From assembly GCA_005778835.1 (NCBI GenBank), contig SXMG01000122.1, forward strand, positions 1 through 37,614: a stretch of 37,614 nt of DNA. The letters are read 5' to 3'. This DNA is from Actinomycetota bacterium. GTDB taxonomy: Bacteria; Actinomycetota; Actinomycetes; Actinomycetales; Microbacteriaceae. The notes below the pieces were generated by a model. The model made no database searches and was not told the origin of the DNA. It was given only the letters and a program-made list of their open reading frames with translations. The position numbers were made by a program, and so were the translations under genes. Below are positions 32,263 to 35,604 of this stretch, in pieces. Numbering within the stretch: position 1 is the stretch's first letter; every line of letters begins with the position of its first letter.

Positions 32263-32649
32263 ATGGAATTCATGGATGTTCTGCGCTCGTTCTTCCTCGT
32301 CGCCCACTTCGTCGGCCTCGCCGCCATCATCGGCCCGTTCCTGCTGCAGGCACGGTGGAAGGGCCAGTTCGCCTTCCCGGTCGTGCTCGGCGGTGCGATC
32401 ACCCAGCTCGTGACGGGCCTCGTTCTGGTGGGCCTCGCCGAGATGCGCGCGGCTCAGATGGACTTCGAGGTCGATCACGTCAAGGTGGCCGTCAAGCTCG
32501 TCATCGCCCTCATCGTCTTCGTGGTCGCCCTGCTCGGGTTCCTCAAGCAGCGAAAGACCGAGGGGGGCGGCGGCCGCGAGCTGCTGCCGTTCTTCCACAC
32601 GGCGGGCGGGCTCGCCCTCATCAACACTGCCCTCGCGGTCTTTTGGTGA
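32263..32649 (+). CDS. Four-helix integral membrane protein
   Basis: 128 residues with four membrane segments: SFFLVAHFVGLAAIIGPFLL, VVLGGAITQLVTGLVLVGLA, VKLVIALIVFVVALLGFL and AGGLALINTALAVFW. A basic cytoplasmic loop (KQRKTEGGGGRELLP) separates helices 3 and 4. Similar small proteins are common and uncharacterised in actinobacteria. GGGAGG lies about 9 nt before the ATG. It converges on tadA with a 29-nt gap. Confidence 0.85.
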   Translation: MEFMDVLRSFFLVAHFVGLAAIIGPFLLQARWKGQFAFPVVLGGAITQLVTGLVLVGLAEMRAAQMDFEVDHVKVAVKLVIALIVFVVALLGFLKQRKTEGGGGRELLPFFHTAGGLALINTALAVFW

Positions 32650-32678
32650 GCAGAGCCTGGTAAGCGGAGCCTGGTGAT

Positions 32679-33167
32679 CTAGGTACTGACAGCACCCTCG
32701 CGGCGCTGCTGCTCGAAGAACTCGCGCAGCAGCGCCGCGCTCGTCTCTTCTTCCACACCGCCGACGACCTCGGCGACGCGGTGGGGCAGCCGGCGCTCGC
32801 GCAGCAGGTCGACGACGCTGCCCGCAGCGCCCGCCTTCTCGTCCCACGCCCCGAACACGACCCGGTCGATGCGCGCGGCCAGGATGGCGCCTGCGCAGAG
32901 CACGCAGGGTTCGAGGGTGACGACGAGCGTGCATCCGGTCAGTTGCCAGTCGCCCGTGGCGGCGGCCGCTTGTCGCAGCGCGACCACTTCGGCGTGCGCG
33001 GTCGGGTCGTGGTGCTTCTCGCGCTCGTTGCGGCCCCGGCCGATGACGCTGCCCGCCGCGTCGAGCACGAGAGCGCCGACGGGAACATCGCCCGAGAGCA
33101 GAGCGCCGCGGGCCTCGTCGAGGGCGGCGCGCATCGCGGCCCGATCGCCGTCAGAGACCGTGGTCAT
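32679..33167 (-). CDS. tadA: tRNA adenosine(34) deaminase
   Basis: 162 residues. The cytidine-deaminase-fold zinc site is complete: His58-Ala-Glu60 (TAHAEV) and PC-xx-C with Cys88 and Cys91 (LEPCVLCAGA). DVPVGALVLD and RNEREKHHDPTAHAE match TadA, which converts A34 of tRNA-Arg(ACG) to inosine. The start at 33167 follows AAGGG by 6 nt; the frame remains open upstream to 34115 only because it shadows upp. Confidence 0.92.
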   Translation of the reverse strand: MTTVSDGDRAAMRAALDEARGALLSGDVPVGALVLDAAGSVIGRGRNEREKHHDPTAHAEVVALRQAAAATGDWQLTGCTLVVTLEPCVLCAGAILAARIDRVVFGAWDEKAGAAGSVVDLLRERRLPHRVAEVVGGVEEETSAALLREFFEQQRREGAVST

Positions 33168-33182
33168 GCCCCGCCCTTCCGT

Positions 33183-33195
33183 TAGATTGAGCCTA
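33183..33195. promoter_or_regulatory. Interlocked divergent promoters of upp and tadA
   Basis: On the plus strand TAGATT (33183-33188) is 6 nt from the upp ATG 33195 (leaderless). On the minus strand TAGGCT (33195-33190) points at tadA, with a start expected near 33183. Each start point lies on the other promoter's -10 box. Confidence 0.45.
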
Positions 33196-33830
33196 TGCGA
33201 GTACACGTTGCCGACCACCCTCTGATCACCCACAAGCTCACCGTGCTGCGTGATCAGAACACGGCCTCGGCGACCTTCCGGGCCCTGACGGAAGAGCTCG
33301 TGACGCTGCTCGCCTACGAGGCGACCCGCAACGTGCGCACGCACGAAGTGACGATCACGACCCCGGTGACCGAGACAGTGGGTCTGGCGATCAGCGAGCC
33401 GCGGCCCCTCATCGTTCCGATCCTGCGCGCGGGGCTCGGCATGCTCGAGGGCATGGTCAAGCTCGTGCCGAGTGCCGAGGTCGGCTTTCTCGGCATGGTG
33501 CGCGACCACGACACCCTCGAACCGAGCGTGTACGCCGAGCGGCTGCCCGACCACCTCGAGGGCCGGCAGTGCTTCGTGCTCGACCCCAGGCTCGCGACCG
33601 GCGGCTCGCTGCTCGCCGCGATCGAGTTTTTGTTCCAACGCGGCGCCGACGACGTCACGGCCGTGTGCCTGCTCGGCGCCCCCGAGGGTCTCGCGATGAT
33701 CGAGAAGGCCACCGAGGGGCGCGACGTCACGATCGTGCTCGGCGCGCTCGATGAGAAGCTCAACGAGAAGGGCTACATCGTTCCGGGCCTCGGCGACGCG
33801 GGCGACCGCCTCTACGGCACGGTCGGCTGA
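33195..33830 (+). CDS. upp: Uracil phosphoribosyltransferase
   Basis: 211 residues, the usual length. Family segments: [38 protein letters not shown], the PRPP-binding loop [16 protein letters not shown] and the C-terminal uracil-binding [16 protein letters not shown]. The enzyme salvages uracil to UMP in the cytoplasm. It starts without a leader. Confidence 0.97.
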
Positions 33831-33842
33831 CCCCGCATCGAC

Positions 33843-33872
33843 TTGACGGTCTGCAGCGCGCTCGGCGATACT
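33843..33872 (+). promoter_or_regulatory. Promoter of the Met/Cys-rich small ORF
   Basis: TTGACG (33843-33848), 18-nt spacer, GATACT (33867-33872), then 7 nt to ATG 33880. A near-consensus vegetative promoter placed so that transcription begins on the ATG. Confidence 0.65.
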
Positions 33873-33879
33873 GAGCCGC

Positions 33880-33981
33880 ATGACCGTCACCGCGAAGCTC
33901 CTGACCGCCCCTGAGGCTGTGGAGACCGCTGGCATGATGATGCCGGCAAGCGCTGACGCGTGTTGTCGAATGTGCGCTTGA
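33880..33981 (+). CDS. Leaderless 33-codon ORF rich in Met and Cys codons (possible leader peptide)
   Basis: Too short for routine gene calling. It is supported by a promoter whose -10 box ends 7 nt before the ATG, so translation would start on the first bases of the mRNA. The peptide begins MTVTAKLLTAPEAV, has three consecutive Met (19-21) and ends with CCRMCA (Cys28, Cys29, Cys32). Eight of 33 residues contain sulfur. The two adjacent Cys codons are TGT, unusual at this GC content, and are followed by CGA. The stop is 52 nt before the winged-helix regulator gene. Leaderless small ORFs with terminal cysteine runs are known in mycobacteria as cysteine-responsive attenuators; the same role here is inference. 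Alternatively it could be a peptide with its own function. Confidence 0.5.
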   Translation: MTVTAKLLTAPEAVETAGMMMPASADACCRMCA

Positions 33982-34007
33982 TCGGCTGCCCTTCCGCCCG
34001 AGTGCCG

Positions 34008-34051
34008 CTGACTCGCCGTACCCTCGTCAGACGATGAGCGAGAACGACGAG
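34008..34051 (+). promoter_or_regulatory. Alternative hairpins between the small ORF and the winged-helix gene
   Basis: CTGAC (34008-34012) can pair with GTCAG (34026-34030). CTCGTC (34023-34028) can pair with GACGAG (34046-34051), enclosing the ATG at 34034. The two pairings share bases 34026-34028 and exclude each other. Stems are only 5-6 bp, so this is suggestive only. TACCCT (34019-34024) could also be a -10 box for the regulator. Confidence 0.3.
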
Positions 34052-34891
34052 CGGGCCCTCCCCGCATCGGTGCCGGATGCTCCGGCTCCAGGTGCGCGCA
34101 CCTCCGACTCCACACCCCGAACCGCCGACGCCCCGACGGGCGACGAGCCGTTCGATTCTGCAGAAAGCGTCTCGACGATGTCTCTCGCCACTCTCGCCTC
34201 CCGTCCCGCTCCCACTCCTGTAGCCCCCGCGCTCCCCGCGCCCGAGCCCGCCGCCGCTCCGCGCCTGCGCGCCGTGCCCGAGGGCACCGAGGCTCGCGGC
34301 TTCGTGCTCTACGTCGGGTTCGACGAGGCCAAGGCCGCCGCGGCCGGTATCGACCTCGGCCGGCTCGTCACCGAGCTGAAGAAGGTCACCGCCGAGCTCG
34401 CGCCGGGCTCAGAGACGCACGCGGCCGTCGCCCTCGCGCCGACCGGCGCGGGCGGCCGTGACGTCGAGGTCGTGCGGCTCGCGCTGCAAGACCCTGCCGC
34501 GCTCGCGCGTTACCGCCGCACCACCGAGGCGCCGCCCGAGCCCCCCGCGCTCGGCGTCATCATCGACATCTCGCGCAAGCGCGTGCTGCTCGACGGCGAG
34601 AGTGCCGCGCTCACCTACAAGGAGTTCGAGCTGCTGCAGTACCTCGTGCTGCGCGAGGGCCGCACGATCGAGCGCGCCGAGCTCATCGGCTCGCTATGGG
34701 CCGACGGCGCTGAGGGCGACGACGACGTGCCGAACGAGCGCACGATCGACGTGCACGTGCGCCGACTGCGGTCGAAGCTCGGCGGCTATGAAGACATCGT
34801 GCGCACGGTGCGCGGCTCGGGCTACCGGTTCGACCGGCACGCCGATGTGTCGATCCGCTATGCGTCGACTCCGAGCCCCGACTTCTTCTGA
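34034..34891 (+). CDS. Winged-helix (OmpR/PhoB-type) regulator without a receiver domain
   Basis: 285 residues. Residues 1-80 are disordered and rich in Pro, Ala and Ser. About 85-165 form an unrecognised alpha/beta domain (FVLYVGFDEAKAAAAGIDLG, LVTELKKVTAELAPGSETHA). About 178-275 are a complete OmpR-type winged helix: VLLDGESAALTYKEFELLQY, ERAELIGSLWADG, NERTIDVHVRRLRSKLGGY and VRTVRGSGYRF. The phospho-acceptor receiver domain is missing, so it is not a standard response regulator; the middle domain may sense a signal. It lies downstream of the Met/Cys-rich ORF. ATG 34034 begins the only plausible reading. Confidence 0.85.
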   Translation: MSENDERALPASVPDAPAPGARTSDSTPRTADAPTGDEPFDSAESVSTMSLATLASRPAPTPVAPALPAPEPAAAPRLRAVPEGTEARGFVLYVGFDEAKAAAAGIDLGRLVTELKKVTAELAPGSETHAAVALAPTGAGGRDVEVVRLALQDPAALARYRRTTEAPPEPPALGVIIDISRKRVLLDGESAALTYKEFELLQYLVLREGRTIERAELIGSLWADGAEGDDDVPNERTIDVHVRRLRSKLGGYEDIVRTVRGSGYRFDRHADVSIRYASTPSPDFF

Positions 34892-34898
34892 CCTGACG

Positions 34899-34935
34899 GC
34901 CCCGTAGGGGCATTGGGACCGGCCGTTCGGGCCGG
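34899..34935 (+). terminator. Tandem hairpins after the winged-helix gene
   Basis: GCCCC-gta-GGGGC (34899-34911) and CCGGCC / GGCCGG with a 5-nt loop (34919-34935). No T-tract follows directly. Likely the end of the regulator transcript. Confidence 0.5.
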
Positions 34936-34954
34936 ATTCGACGAATTCTGGAAA

Positions 34955-34994
34955 ATAACGAACTGATAACTAGACAGCGTTACCTTTTCGTTAT
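34955..34994. repeat. AT-rich inverted repeat
   Basis: ATAACGAA (34955-34962) and TTCGTTAT (34987-34994), perfect 8-bp arms, 24 nt apart, in an island of about 60 nt that is much richer in A and T than the rest of the window. The right arm touches the candidate -10 box at 34994-34999, as an operator would. Confidence 0.5.
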
Positions 34995-34999
34995 ACCTT
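34971..34999 (+). promoter_or_regulatory. Candidate promoter in the AT-rich island
   Basis: TAGACA (34971-34976), 17-nt spacer, TACCTT (34994-34999). Transcription would start near 35006. No protein gene fits immediately downstream; the MarR gene has its own -10 box at 35164. Confidence 0.4.
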
Positions 35000-35005
35000 T
35001 CAAGT

Positions 35006-35110
35006 GCGTCAACCGTTTGCTGTGGCGGGGGGCGCGGAATGTGATTGCAGGACACTCTTGGTGCAAGGGAAGAGGGCCGGTCGCTCGCCTCGGCGACCGG
35101 CCCTTCACTT
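35006..35110 (+). ncRNA. Possible small RNA of about 105 nt
   Basis: The span lies between the candidate promoter at 34971-34999 and the strong hairpin at 35073-35104. It has no convincing ORF: a GTG-started frame from 35004 reads through the hairpin into low-quality sequence. No known RNA family is recognised. Alternatively this is simply the promoter and 5' region of a longer MarR transcript. Confidence 0.3.
35073..35104 (+). terminator. Strong hairpin terminator
   Basis: AGGGCCGGTCGC and GCGACCGGCCCT form a perfect 12-bp stem with an 8-nt loop, followed by TCACTTGCCC. Placed 72 nt before the MarR gene and its own promoter, it would end any transcript arriving from the left. Confidence 0.65.
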
Positions 35111-35163
35111 GCCCGGCCGCGATCAATCGGGCCTCCGTGCCGATACATGCTCACGCGCGCACG

Positions 35164-35169
35164 TAGAGT
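35164..35169 (+). promoter_or_regulatory. Leaderless -10 box of the MarR gene
   Basis: TAGAGT, 6 nt, then ATG 35176. Confidence 0.5.
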
Positions 35170-35175
35170 AATCGC

Positions 35176-35604
35176 ATGACCGAGAAGGCTCTGGCTGTCG
35201 ACGCCTGGGAGGCTCTCTTCCGCGCTCAGGTGTCGGTGCTGCGCACGCTGAGCGCCGAGTTTCCGACCAGCGAGATCTCGTTCACCGAGTACGACGTGCT
35301 GTTCAACCTCTCGCGCGCGCCTGAGCGCCGCATGCGCATCCGCGACCTGATTCCGCACCTACTGCTGAGCCAGCCCAGCGTGAGCCGCCTCATCGACCGT
35401 CTCACCGCTCGCCAGCTCGTCGACAAGCTGCCCGACGCCACCGACGCACGGGGCACGATCGTCGCTCTCCGACCCGAGGGCTACGAGCTCTTCAAGCGCG
35501 TCGCCGTGATTCACGCCGATGCGATTGCCCGCCGGGTCGGCACGCGACTGACTCCGGACGAGCTCGCCGAGCTCACGGCGCTCTGCCAGCGACTGCGCGA
35601 CTGA
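35176..35604 (+). CDS. MarR-family transcriptional regulator
   Basis: 142 residues. MarR winged-helix order is clear: LSAEFPTSEISFTEYDVLFNL-type helix, MRIRDLIPHLLLSQPSVSRL (recognition helix), RLTARQLVDKLPDATDARGT with the wing DxRxT/R-like DARGTIVALRPEGYEL, and a C-terminal dimer helix. The ligand is unknown. Leaderless start. It converges on the nucleotidyltransferase-like gene with a 6-nt gap, so its target is not evident from context. Confidence 0.92.
   Translation: MTEKALAVDAWEALFRAQVSVLRTLSAEFPTSEISFTEYDVLFNLSRAPERRMRIRDLIPHLLLSQPSVSRLIDRLTARQLVDKLPDATDARGTIVALRPEGYELFKRVAVIHADAIARRVGTRLTPDELAELTALCQRLRD

Follow-up and report, generated by a model that had tools for sequence, protein, structure and literature searches.

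Leaderless polycysteine short open reading frames (ORFs) have been described in mycobacteria as attenuators that depend on the cysteine supply (Canestrari et al. 2020; PMC9031893, PMC9094748, PMC4633059, PMC13236596), and the review among these reports likewise describes attenuation dependent on cysteine supply as the mode of action of the mycobacterial Cys leader peptides (PMC9031893). Candidate leader peptides ending in Cys were also reported before cys genes in Actinobacteria (Seliverstov et al. 2005, PMC1262725). In the present study, an attenuator-like leader was followed up that stands before an orphan, receiver-less OmpR-type regulator. This arrangement had been suggested by an initial annotation of the DNA, and conservation in the family now supports it. 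In the literature searched, with subscription papers mostly beyond the search, no report of a Cys-codon leader before an orphan OmpR-type regulator was found. Searches combining Microbacteriaceae, leader peptide and cysteine returned no paper. Among the entries listed for Clavibacter start sites, and for upp together with winged helix and Leifsonia, nothing relevant was found.

The window, i.e. the whole stretch of 37,614 nucleotides that was analysed, carries the features listed in Table 1. The near-consensus promoter claimed before the 33-codon upstream ORF (uORF) is present, ends 7 nt before the ATG at 33880 and was the sole promoter-like site in a scan of positions 32500-35500 (shuffles, mean 0.1). 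Within the 60 nt 5' of the uORF, TTGAC was observed in 100 of 106 distinct loci, compared with 12.7 in shuffles. The spacing from TTG to ATG was 35-37 nt in 107 of the 109 distinct regions of the family, named and unnamed loci taken together, and the leaderless geometry claimed for the window thus appears to be a family feature. From this promoter spacing we infer that the transcript starts on the uORF ATG and that ribosomes load directly at the 5' end, a leaderless start which, judged by sequence only, resembles that of the mycobacterial-type cysteine attenuators. By eye, a GTGCAAGAAACTTGCAC-like inverted repeat spanning the -10 element and the start site of the uORF promoter was also seen at four loci of the same family (L017, L038, L056, L060).

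Table 1. Positions in the window of the leader, its candidate RNA elements and the neighbouring genes.
Feature	Position	Strand	Basis and remarks
tadA, tRNA adenosine(34) deaminase	32679..33167	-	NCBIfam PRK10860, 150.2 bits (cut-off 150); divergent from upp
upp, uracil phosphoribosyltransferase	33195..33830	+	Neighbours the regulator on its 5' side at most loci
Promoter	33843..33872	+	-35 TTGACG (33843-33848), 18-nt spacer, -10 GATACT (33867-33872)
Putative leaderless uORF, 33 codons, MTVTAKLLTAPEAVETAGMMMPASADACCRMCA	33880..33981	+	Sequence; conserved, in frame
Predicted helix P1 of three-way junction	33885..33958	+	Window leader fold; 33885-33889 and 33891-33893 pair with 33954-33958 and 33950-33952
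Predicted helix P2, codons 7-15	33898..33924	+	Window fold and covariation; family consensus CCTC-N4-GAGG
Predicted hairpin P3, codons 17-23	33928..33947	+	Window fold and covariation; compensated changes in relatives; holds the three Met codons
Cassette TGT-CGA-ATG (Cys29-Arg30-Met31)	33964..33972	+	Codon conservation; inside TGTTGTCGAATGTG (33961-33974)
C-rich post-uORF leader	33982..34177	+	C excess; length varies with the regulator start used (34034 or 34178)
Possible short hairpin CTCGTC-AGAC-GATGAG enclosing ATG 34034	34023..34038	+	Sequence; like stems in relatives
CGTTCGAT, possible partner of GTCGAATG of the cassette	34149..34156	+	8 contiguous pairs, two G-U
Orphan regulator, OmpR/PhoB/GlnR-type winged helix	34034..34891	+	Pfam, model and structure match; alternative start 34178

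With the 33-residue peptide as tblastn query, 40 of 60 relatives gave matches at E values up to 1; the weak matches were noise, and the clear ones were full-length ORFs, mostly adjoining upp, from the window genus and from further genera of its family. The window genus appears to be Microcella as delimited by GTDB, since regions of this genus match Microcella records. In all of the 80 named loci, which were chosen by regulator similarity alone, TTG[AC] was found 35-37 nt before an ATG together with the motif YGYCGAMYG. By a fixed rule the motif was in frame with the ATG in 78 of them; in L120 and L140 the rule picked a different ATG, and an in-frame ORF exists at both. Among the 109 distinct regions, 107 showed the promoter-ATG-motif geometry (the misses are L016 and L042), and the distances from ATG to motif were 84, 81, 87, 60, 63 and 102 nt, in frame in 107 of 107, counts that are not independent since the compared loci are related. 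Because six different lengths occur and each is a multiple of three, the reading frame of the uORF is, on this comparison, under selection, and these differing lengths are the strongest sign of uORF translation in the analysis. The initial annotation had made its reading depend on conservation of the ORF and its Cys codons in close relatives; the comparison carried out here found both, well past close relatives.

The composition of the ORF was borne out as well. Met or Cys account for 8 of the 33 residues of MTVTAKLLTAPEAVETAGMMMPASADACCRMCA, the C-terminal end reads Cys-Cys-Arg-Met-Cys-Ala, and the paired Cys codons are TGT TGT, with TGC as the third; TGT is rare, at 5.6% of the 142 Cys codons counted in upp and the regulator gene at the same set of loci. 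In the window genome (81% complete), TGYTGYCGAATGTG is present as a single copy. The peptide gave no match in Pfam and NCBIfam, and no Rfam family came near threshold for the uORF region.

Codon conservation was assessed in 73 distinct ORFs, a set obtained from 136 loci through 104 distinct ORFs, from which ORFs of any length other than 33 residues and 11 individually specified loci were excluded, the latter including the Cys-less clade and the MMPVL-expanded loci described below and L088, where the wrong ORF had been picked although a genuine uORF is present. In this filtered set, codon 29 was TGT in 71 of 73 (background 5.6%) and codon 30 was CGA in 73 of 73 (background 6.3%). The first Cys of the pair was variable (57/73) and the second invariant (73/73), and further synonymous preferences were observed in the alignment for Leu8 (CTG in 54/56) and Gly15 (GGG in 36/42). 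The weighted entropy of the gapless alignment was 0.87, 0.90 and 0.88 at codon positions 1, 2 and 3, respectively, i.e. the three positions are equally conserved. The constraint on the uORF acts at the nucleotide level, since Arg30 is the rare CGA in all 73 ORFs and the body of the ORF forms a three-way junction whose helices covary.

Without this filtering, CGA was found in 80 of the 80 named loci, partly because the search motif itself includes CGA. The last eight residues held three Cys in 55 loci, two in 16, one in 4 and none in 5, so that two or three Cys near the stop, as in the mycobacterial-type attenuators, were seen in 71 of 80. All four of the one-Cys loci are from Clavibacter. Two of the five loci with none have wrongly assigned starts, and the other three (L071, L073 and L074) are relatives within the window genus ending RRRPRA or PRRPRA; this clade, in which L035 is a copy of the L071 region, has lost the Cys codons and kept the ORF and the regulator. 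Cys at the end of the uORF is thus, in the genomes compared, usual and not universal. The late Cys codons of the proposed Met/Cys sulfur-sensing leader hold up; the Met codons do not support it in the same way.

The uORF body is predicted to fold as a three-way junction, and its helices covary in the family. The helices scored were columns 12-18 with 69-75 (the family version of P1), 20-22 with 43-45, 26-29 with 34-37, and 49-56 with 61-68, the last of which contains the three Met codons. In these, 77.8% of cells were paired, both sides had changed in 47 cells compared with 24.9 in shuffles, and the covariation score was 0.149 against 0.113 +/- 0.005, a value reached by 0 of 500 shuffles; when the partner columns were slid, pairing fell to 30-44%. 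With default scoring, RNAalifold returned no consensus structure for the 73 sequences. Under RIBOSUM scoring most of the counted helices were recovered; the additional pairs 2-5/86-89 and 24/39 were omitted, and P1 and P3 were extended by hand from single folds. Compared with synonymous recodings, the mean z was -0.78 for codons 1-27, -1.02 for P3, -0.88 for P2 and -0.16 for codons 12-25. Because the uORF is only moderately more stable than its recodings, part of the fold follows from the amino acids and base composition. The fold does not account for TGTCGAATG.

The initial annotation had also considered sensing of methionine by the three Met codons. As the chief cause of the triplet this was discarded, since hairpin P3 explains these codons. 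Compensated stem changes were observed in L045, L058, L105, L141, L026, L027 and L127, and in the first four of these Gly18 becomes Asp together with Pro22 becoming Ser, the stem being kept (AG-MMM-P to AD-MMM-S). The P3 loop ATGATG is kept even where the register of the stem shifts, and the hairpin does not explain this. At two loci, L042 and L084, an MMPVL unit within P3 is expanded in frame, with start, cassette and stop of the uORF retained and a length of 53 residues in L084. UCCUUC at codons 10-11 was noted as a candidate anti-Shine-Dalgarno sequence.

The downstream gene matches the description of a receiver-less OmpR-type orphan regulator. Pfam found Trans_reg_C (PF00486) at residues 188-266 (E 1.5e-19), i.e. 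the C-terminal winged helix, and no match outside these residues, where an OmpR/PhoB protein would have its N-terminal receiver. In the structural model (mean pLDDT 77, pTM 0.49), confidence is high over the DNA-binding domain and only moderate for the region before it. Foldseek matched the regulator to GlnR and PhoB, the best match being GlnR with 45% identity over the DNA-binding domain, and the protein is thus predicted to have a GlnR/PhoB-like DNA-binding domain without a receiver. Among the family genomes sampled, 193 of 199, in a count by eye, matched the regulator with E values near 1e-50 or lower. Its start in the window may be at 34034 or at 34178. The ATG at 34034 has no evident Shine-Dalgarno sequence, and the usual start in named loci outside the window genus is an MSLA/MSIA ATG after AAGGA that corresponds to 34178. 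Within the window genus the open frame extends further 5', and for L071, L073 and L074 the counterpart of 34034 is the only listed start.

Possible binding sites for the regulator itself were observed in the promoters. Within the 60 nt 5' of the uORF, 35 of 106 loci of the own family carry GT[AC]AC, compared with 11.6 in shuffles. In family f6 of the same order, a TGTTAC-N14/15-TGTTAC direct repeat with GlnR-like half-sites lies 5' of the uORF (L184, L187, L188, L190, L191). This pattern matched only the leader's own promoter in five of eight genomes, with one pair each, and its reversed control gave one or two matches in three of those five. In family f7, GTCAYA repeats with a spacing of about 10 nt stand 5' of the uORF in seven of eight genomes (L192-L196, L198, L199), and elsewhere a single one-mismatch site was found in each of two genomes. 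Searching the f6 and f7 genomes with these promoter repeats revealed no regulon. These half-sites and repeats make autoregulation of the regulator plausible.

In the gene neighbourhood, tadA sits beyond upp as seen from the leader with its invariant rare CGA, possibly a mere shared neighbourhood; in most bacteria CGA is read by an inosine-34 tRNA-Arg made by TadA. A MarR-like regulator (35176-35604, forward strand, weak NCBIfam matches) lies 3' of the orphan regulator.

How the leader might pass a signal to the regulator was examined in the stretch behind the uORF, where C makes up 42.6% and G 25.3% of the leaders. Measured to the 34178-type start, 86 of 102 distinct leaders had a C/G ratio of 1.5 or more; the same was true of 0 of 102 coding stretches from upp, 1 of 101 from the regulator gene and 7 of 94 stretches between upp and the uORF. 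Such a C excess resembles Rho loading sites, and by this analogy the C-rich leader suggests a role of Rho. A terminator-like site, as in classical trp/ilv-type attenuators, was not found between 33880 and 34178 in the window. After the uORF stop, a hairpin opening with GCCGA or GCCCGA was examined in the 69 distinct loci with such a start; at least five contiguous pairs were possible in 51 (40.8 in shuffles), at least six in 38 (19.2), and at least five followed by CCGG in 19 (1.9).

The two mutually exclusive pairings proposed before the regulator ATG were not borne out in that form. Masking the uORF tail in the window (L001) hardly shifted the predicted openness of ATG 34034, which was 0.35 free, 0.36 stalled and 0.37 at stop, and masking gave no useful effect at either regulator start. 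The fold programme favours a slightly different pairing than the 34023-34038 hairpin, and CATCG/CGATG stems like it recur in several relatives. In the 102 leaders, the cassette complements ATTCGAC (19, 1.9 in shuffles) and TTCGAC (36, 9.4 in shuffles) were enriched and CATTCG was not (8 vs 7.0). The duplex energies between uORF tail and leader were about those of shuffles (mean z -0.16, 102 leaders); near the start, the mean z was -0.47 in 67 distinct loci with a recognised Shine-Dalgarno sequence, a set which omits the window genus and others. Masking the Cys codons raised the predicted openness by more than 0.05 in 24 and lowered it in 23 of the 102 leaders, and the mean was 0.458 for the free leader, 0.483 for the stalled state, 0.549 when the entire uORF was masked and 0.451 under a control mask. 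Release of the ribosome-binding site does not appear to be general, the three tests being positive in a subset only (e.g. L045, L081, L089, L094, L097, L101, L127), and as a switch it seems to fit only some clades. As a partner of ATGATGATG, CATCATCA 5' of the regulator Shine-Dalgarno sequence was considered. CATCAT occurred in 36 of 102 leaders, compared with 6.2 in shuffles; it is also present at loci without MMM (L123, L077) and absent from Agromyces loci with MMM.

Related ORFs were observed in other families of the order. The N-terminal region of the regulator was matched in 25 of 119 genomes, eight each from the own family, f6 and f7, and one weakly from f9. In f6, in-frame short ORFs ending CCRM-[HQ]-A or CCRRMQA precede five of eight regulators (L184, L188-L191), and in f7 a short ORF with late Cys codons precedes eight of eight, with CGA-ATG in frame in six (L192-L196, L198); these ORFs were chosen by eye from a list filtered for at least two Cys, so that the counts lean toward the attenuator reading. 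Among the f6 exceptions, L185 and L186 have no CCRM-type ORF. In L187, CGAATG is out of frame with the leaderless-type GTG, with TGC TGC earlier in the GTG frame, and this break might be an indel, an assembly error or a sign of a role at the RNA level. Copies of GCATTCG, complementary to CGAATGC, were seen by eye downstream in f6.

Outside the family, TGYTGYCGAATGTGY was found in 13 of 274 genomes of the order, near chance by estimate, and those inspected lie mostly within other genes. Three matches in f20 look real, ORFs ending in CCRMC with leaderless-type spacing being present by eye at L174/L201, L176/L202 and L177/L200. At L174/L201 the ORF precedes a cystine-like ABC operon, the first gene of which has no family match; for the substrate-binding protein, permease and ATPase (L201), the cystine transporter was the best NCBIfam match each, all below cut-off. 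At L177/L200 it precedes a Tau/Nit-like ABC operon with cytosine-deaminase-like, CMD-domain and luciferase-like monooxygenase genes, and apparently the same operon, by eye, follows in the second genome (L176/L202). The best matches of the ATPase and permease of this operon were SaoA and SaoP, then taurine, phosphonate, sulfonate and nitrate transporters, all below cut-off, which provides a weak sulfur link. The gene behind the leader is a regulator in the family itself, and one related f20 ORF precedes a cystine-like ABC operon and two others Tau/Nit-like operons.

We propose that the stretch from +1 to the regulator start would act as a translated attenuator leader. Transcription would begin on the ATG of the 33-codon uORF, and ribosomes would load on the 5' end. 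What is conserved of the uORF is an RNA fold in its body and, at its end, a Cys(TGY)-Arg(CGA)-Met cassette that usually has further Cys codons around it. When charged Cys-tRNA is scarce, ribosomes would pause in the last uORF codons, and this pause might alter the C-rich leader, leaving it open to Rho or folded over the regulator ribosome-binding site. The state of the leader would then set the amount of the GlnR-like, receiver-less transcription factor. Conservation, frame, nucleotide-level constraint, the covarying fold, the C-rich leader and the related ORFs before orthologous regulators are observed; from them we infer that the uORF is translated, that cysteine is the signal and its scarcity switches on the regulator, which output step follows, and that the regulator acts in sulfur supply. 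We consider a cysteine-codon attenuator of a transcription factor to be the best reading and a moderately probable one; an attenuator is likely, and cysteine is its most probable signal. Against it, conservation is stricter for CGA and Met than for the first Cys (57/73), so that Cys may not be what is sensed. The Cys-less clade of the window genus, the four one-Cys Clavibacter loci, the f6 exceptions and the missing terminator-like site in the window also count against this reading. If the proposal is true, the leader offers an entry point to a regulator common to nearly the whole family as sampled, and it would exemplify coding sequence that is constrained simultaneously in its RNA fold and in the identity of its codons. 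A far-reaching version can also be formulated, in which the GlnR/PhoB-type factor is the family's master regulator of sulfur limitation and a dedicated leaderless leader reading Cys-Arg(CGA)-Met controls how much of it is made; cysteine supply would be reported via attenuation of a regulator and not of an enzyme operon, and the leader would be a joint sensor of Cys-tRNA and tRNA-Arg modification. We regard this version as unlikely.

Several observations can also be read in other ways. The equal conservation of the three codon positions, the compensated helices, the invariant 9-mer left over by the fold and the motif kept out of frame in L187 would all suit a structured RNA working independently of cysteine, in which the junction and the invariant UGUCGAAUG bind a protein, a small RNA or a ligand, and translation only unwinds or protects the RNA. 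However, the frame is kept in 107 of 107 over six lengths, f7 has late-Cys ORFs of unrelated sequence at the same place, the same motif stands before the cystine-like operon in f20 and Rfam holds no family near threshold; we consider such an RNA somewhat unlikely. The uORF might otherwise be a general aid to translation or stability and no sensor, the ribosomes finishing it re-initiating at the regulator start or keeping it open, with CGA and TGT as a fixed slow spot. Reinitiation at leader peptides has been proposed for short gaps (PMC4833913), and in the window genus the regulator ATG can sit 43-68 nt past the uORF stop, mostly without an evident Shine-Dalgarno sequence (L026 and L027 do carry GAAGGA before the regulator start). 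Outside the genus, however, the named loci have gaps of 126-267 nt, usually with an AAGGA before the regulator itself, and an aid of this kind would have no need for the Cys codons to be kept, which makes it quite improbable in our view.

Constraint at the nucleotide level, with no relief at codon position 3, also argues against a product acting in trans as a small Met/Cys-rich metal- or thiol-binding protein, e.g. for copper or zinc. MMM and CCxMC are plausible soft-metal ligands and the peptide is recognisable along its full length in the family, yet the Gly and Pro flanking MMM become Asp and Ser while the stem stays, and the f7 peptides are unrelated and possibly down to 17 residues; we judge this protein very improbable. 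Least of all do we expect TGTCGAATG to be a DNA operator, placed inside transcribed DNA and bound by this regulator or a different factor, which is extremely improbable: the regulator domain is GlnR/PhoB-like and GTNAC-type half-sites occur in its promoters, but these probable operators sit upstream, in the promoter, and the motif is in frame throughout the family, its longer form being single-copy in the window genome.

Taken together, the locus shares features with several described systems. With GlnR, the regulator shares the DNA-binding domain (the top structural and sequence match) and GTNAC-like half-sites in the promoters. GlnR carries an N-terminal receiver-like domain, and in this it differs from the present regulator, whose short N-terminal region gave no match in Pfam. 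The mycobacterial polycysteine ORFs are, like the present uORF, leaderless, first in the transcript and provided with Cys codons near the stop. In the accessible text of those reports they have contiguous Cys codons and precede cysteine or sulfur genes, some of them hypothetical, whereas here the end is CC-R(CGA)-M-C, the body covaries and a transcription factor follows. The leaders of Seliverstov et al. (PMC1262725) likewise have Cys codons near the stop and no terminator, and Rho was suggested by the authors; as far as that report is accessible, the Rho motifs were called not conserved, whereas the C excess is found here in 86 of 102 leaders, and, unlike in those leaders, the target here is a regulator, with conserved helices and frame. 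The whiB7/wblC attenuator (PMC13236596), in the part of the report available, resembles the present leader in that a stalled uORF controls a transcription factor and not an enzyme; whiB7 concerns antibiotic resistance, whereas no antibiotic link was seen for the present leader and no terminator was found in the window. Cys-codon leaders before sulfur genes are thus known in Actinobacteria, and here the same logic appears to apply to a transcription factor, family-wide and with related forms in two more families.
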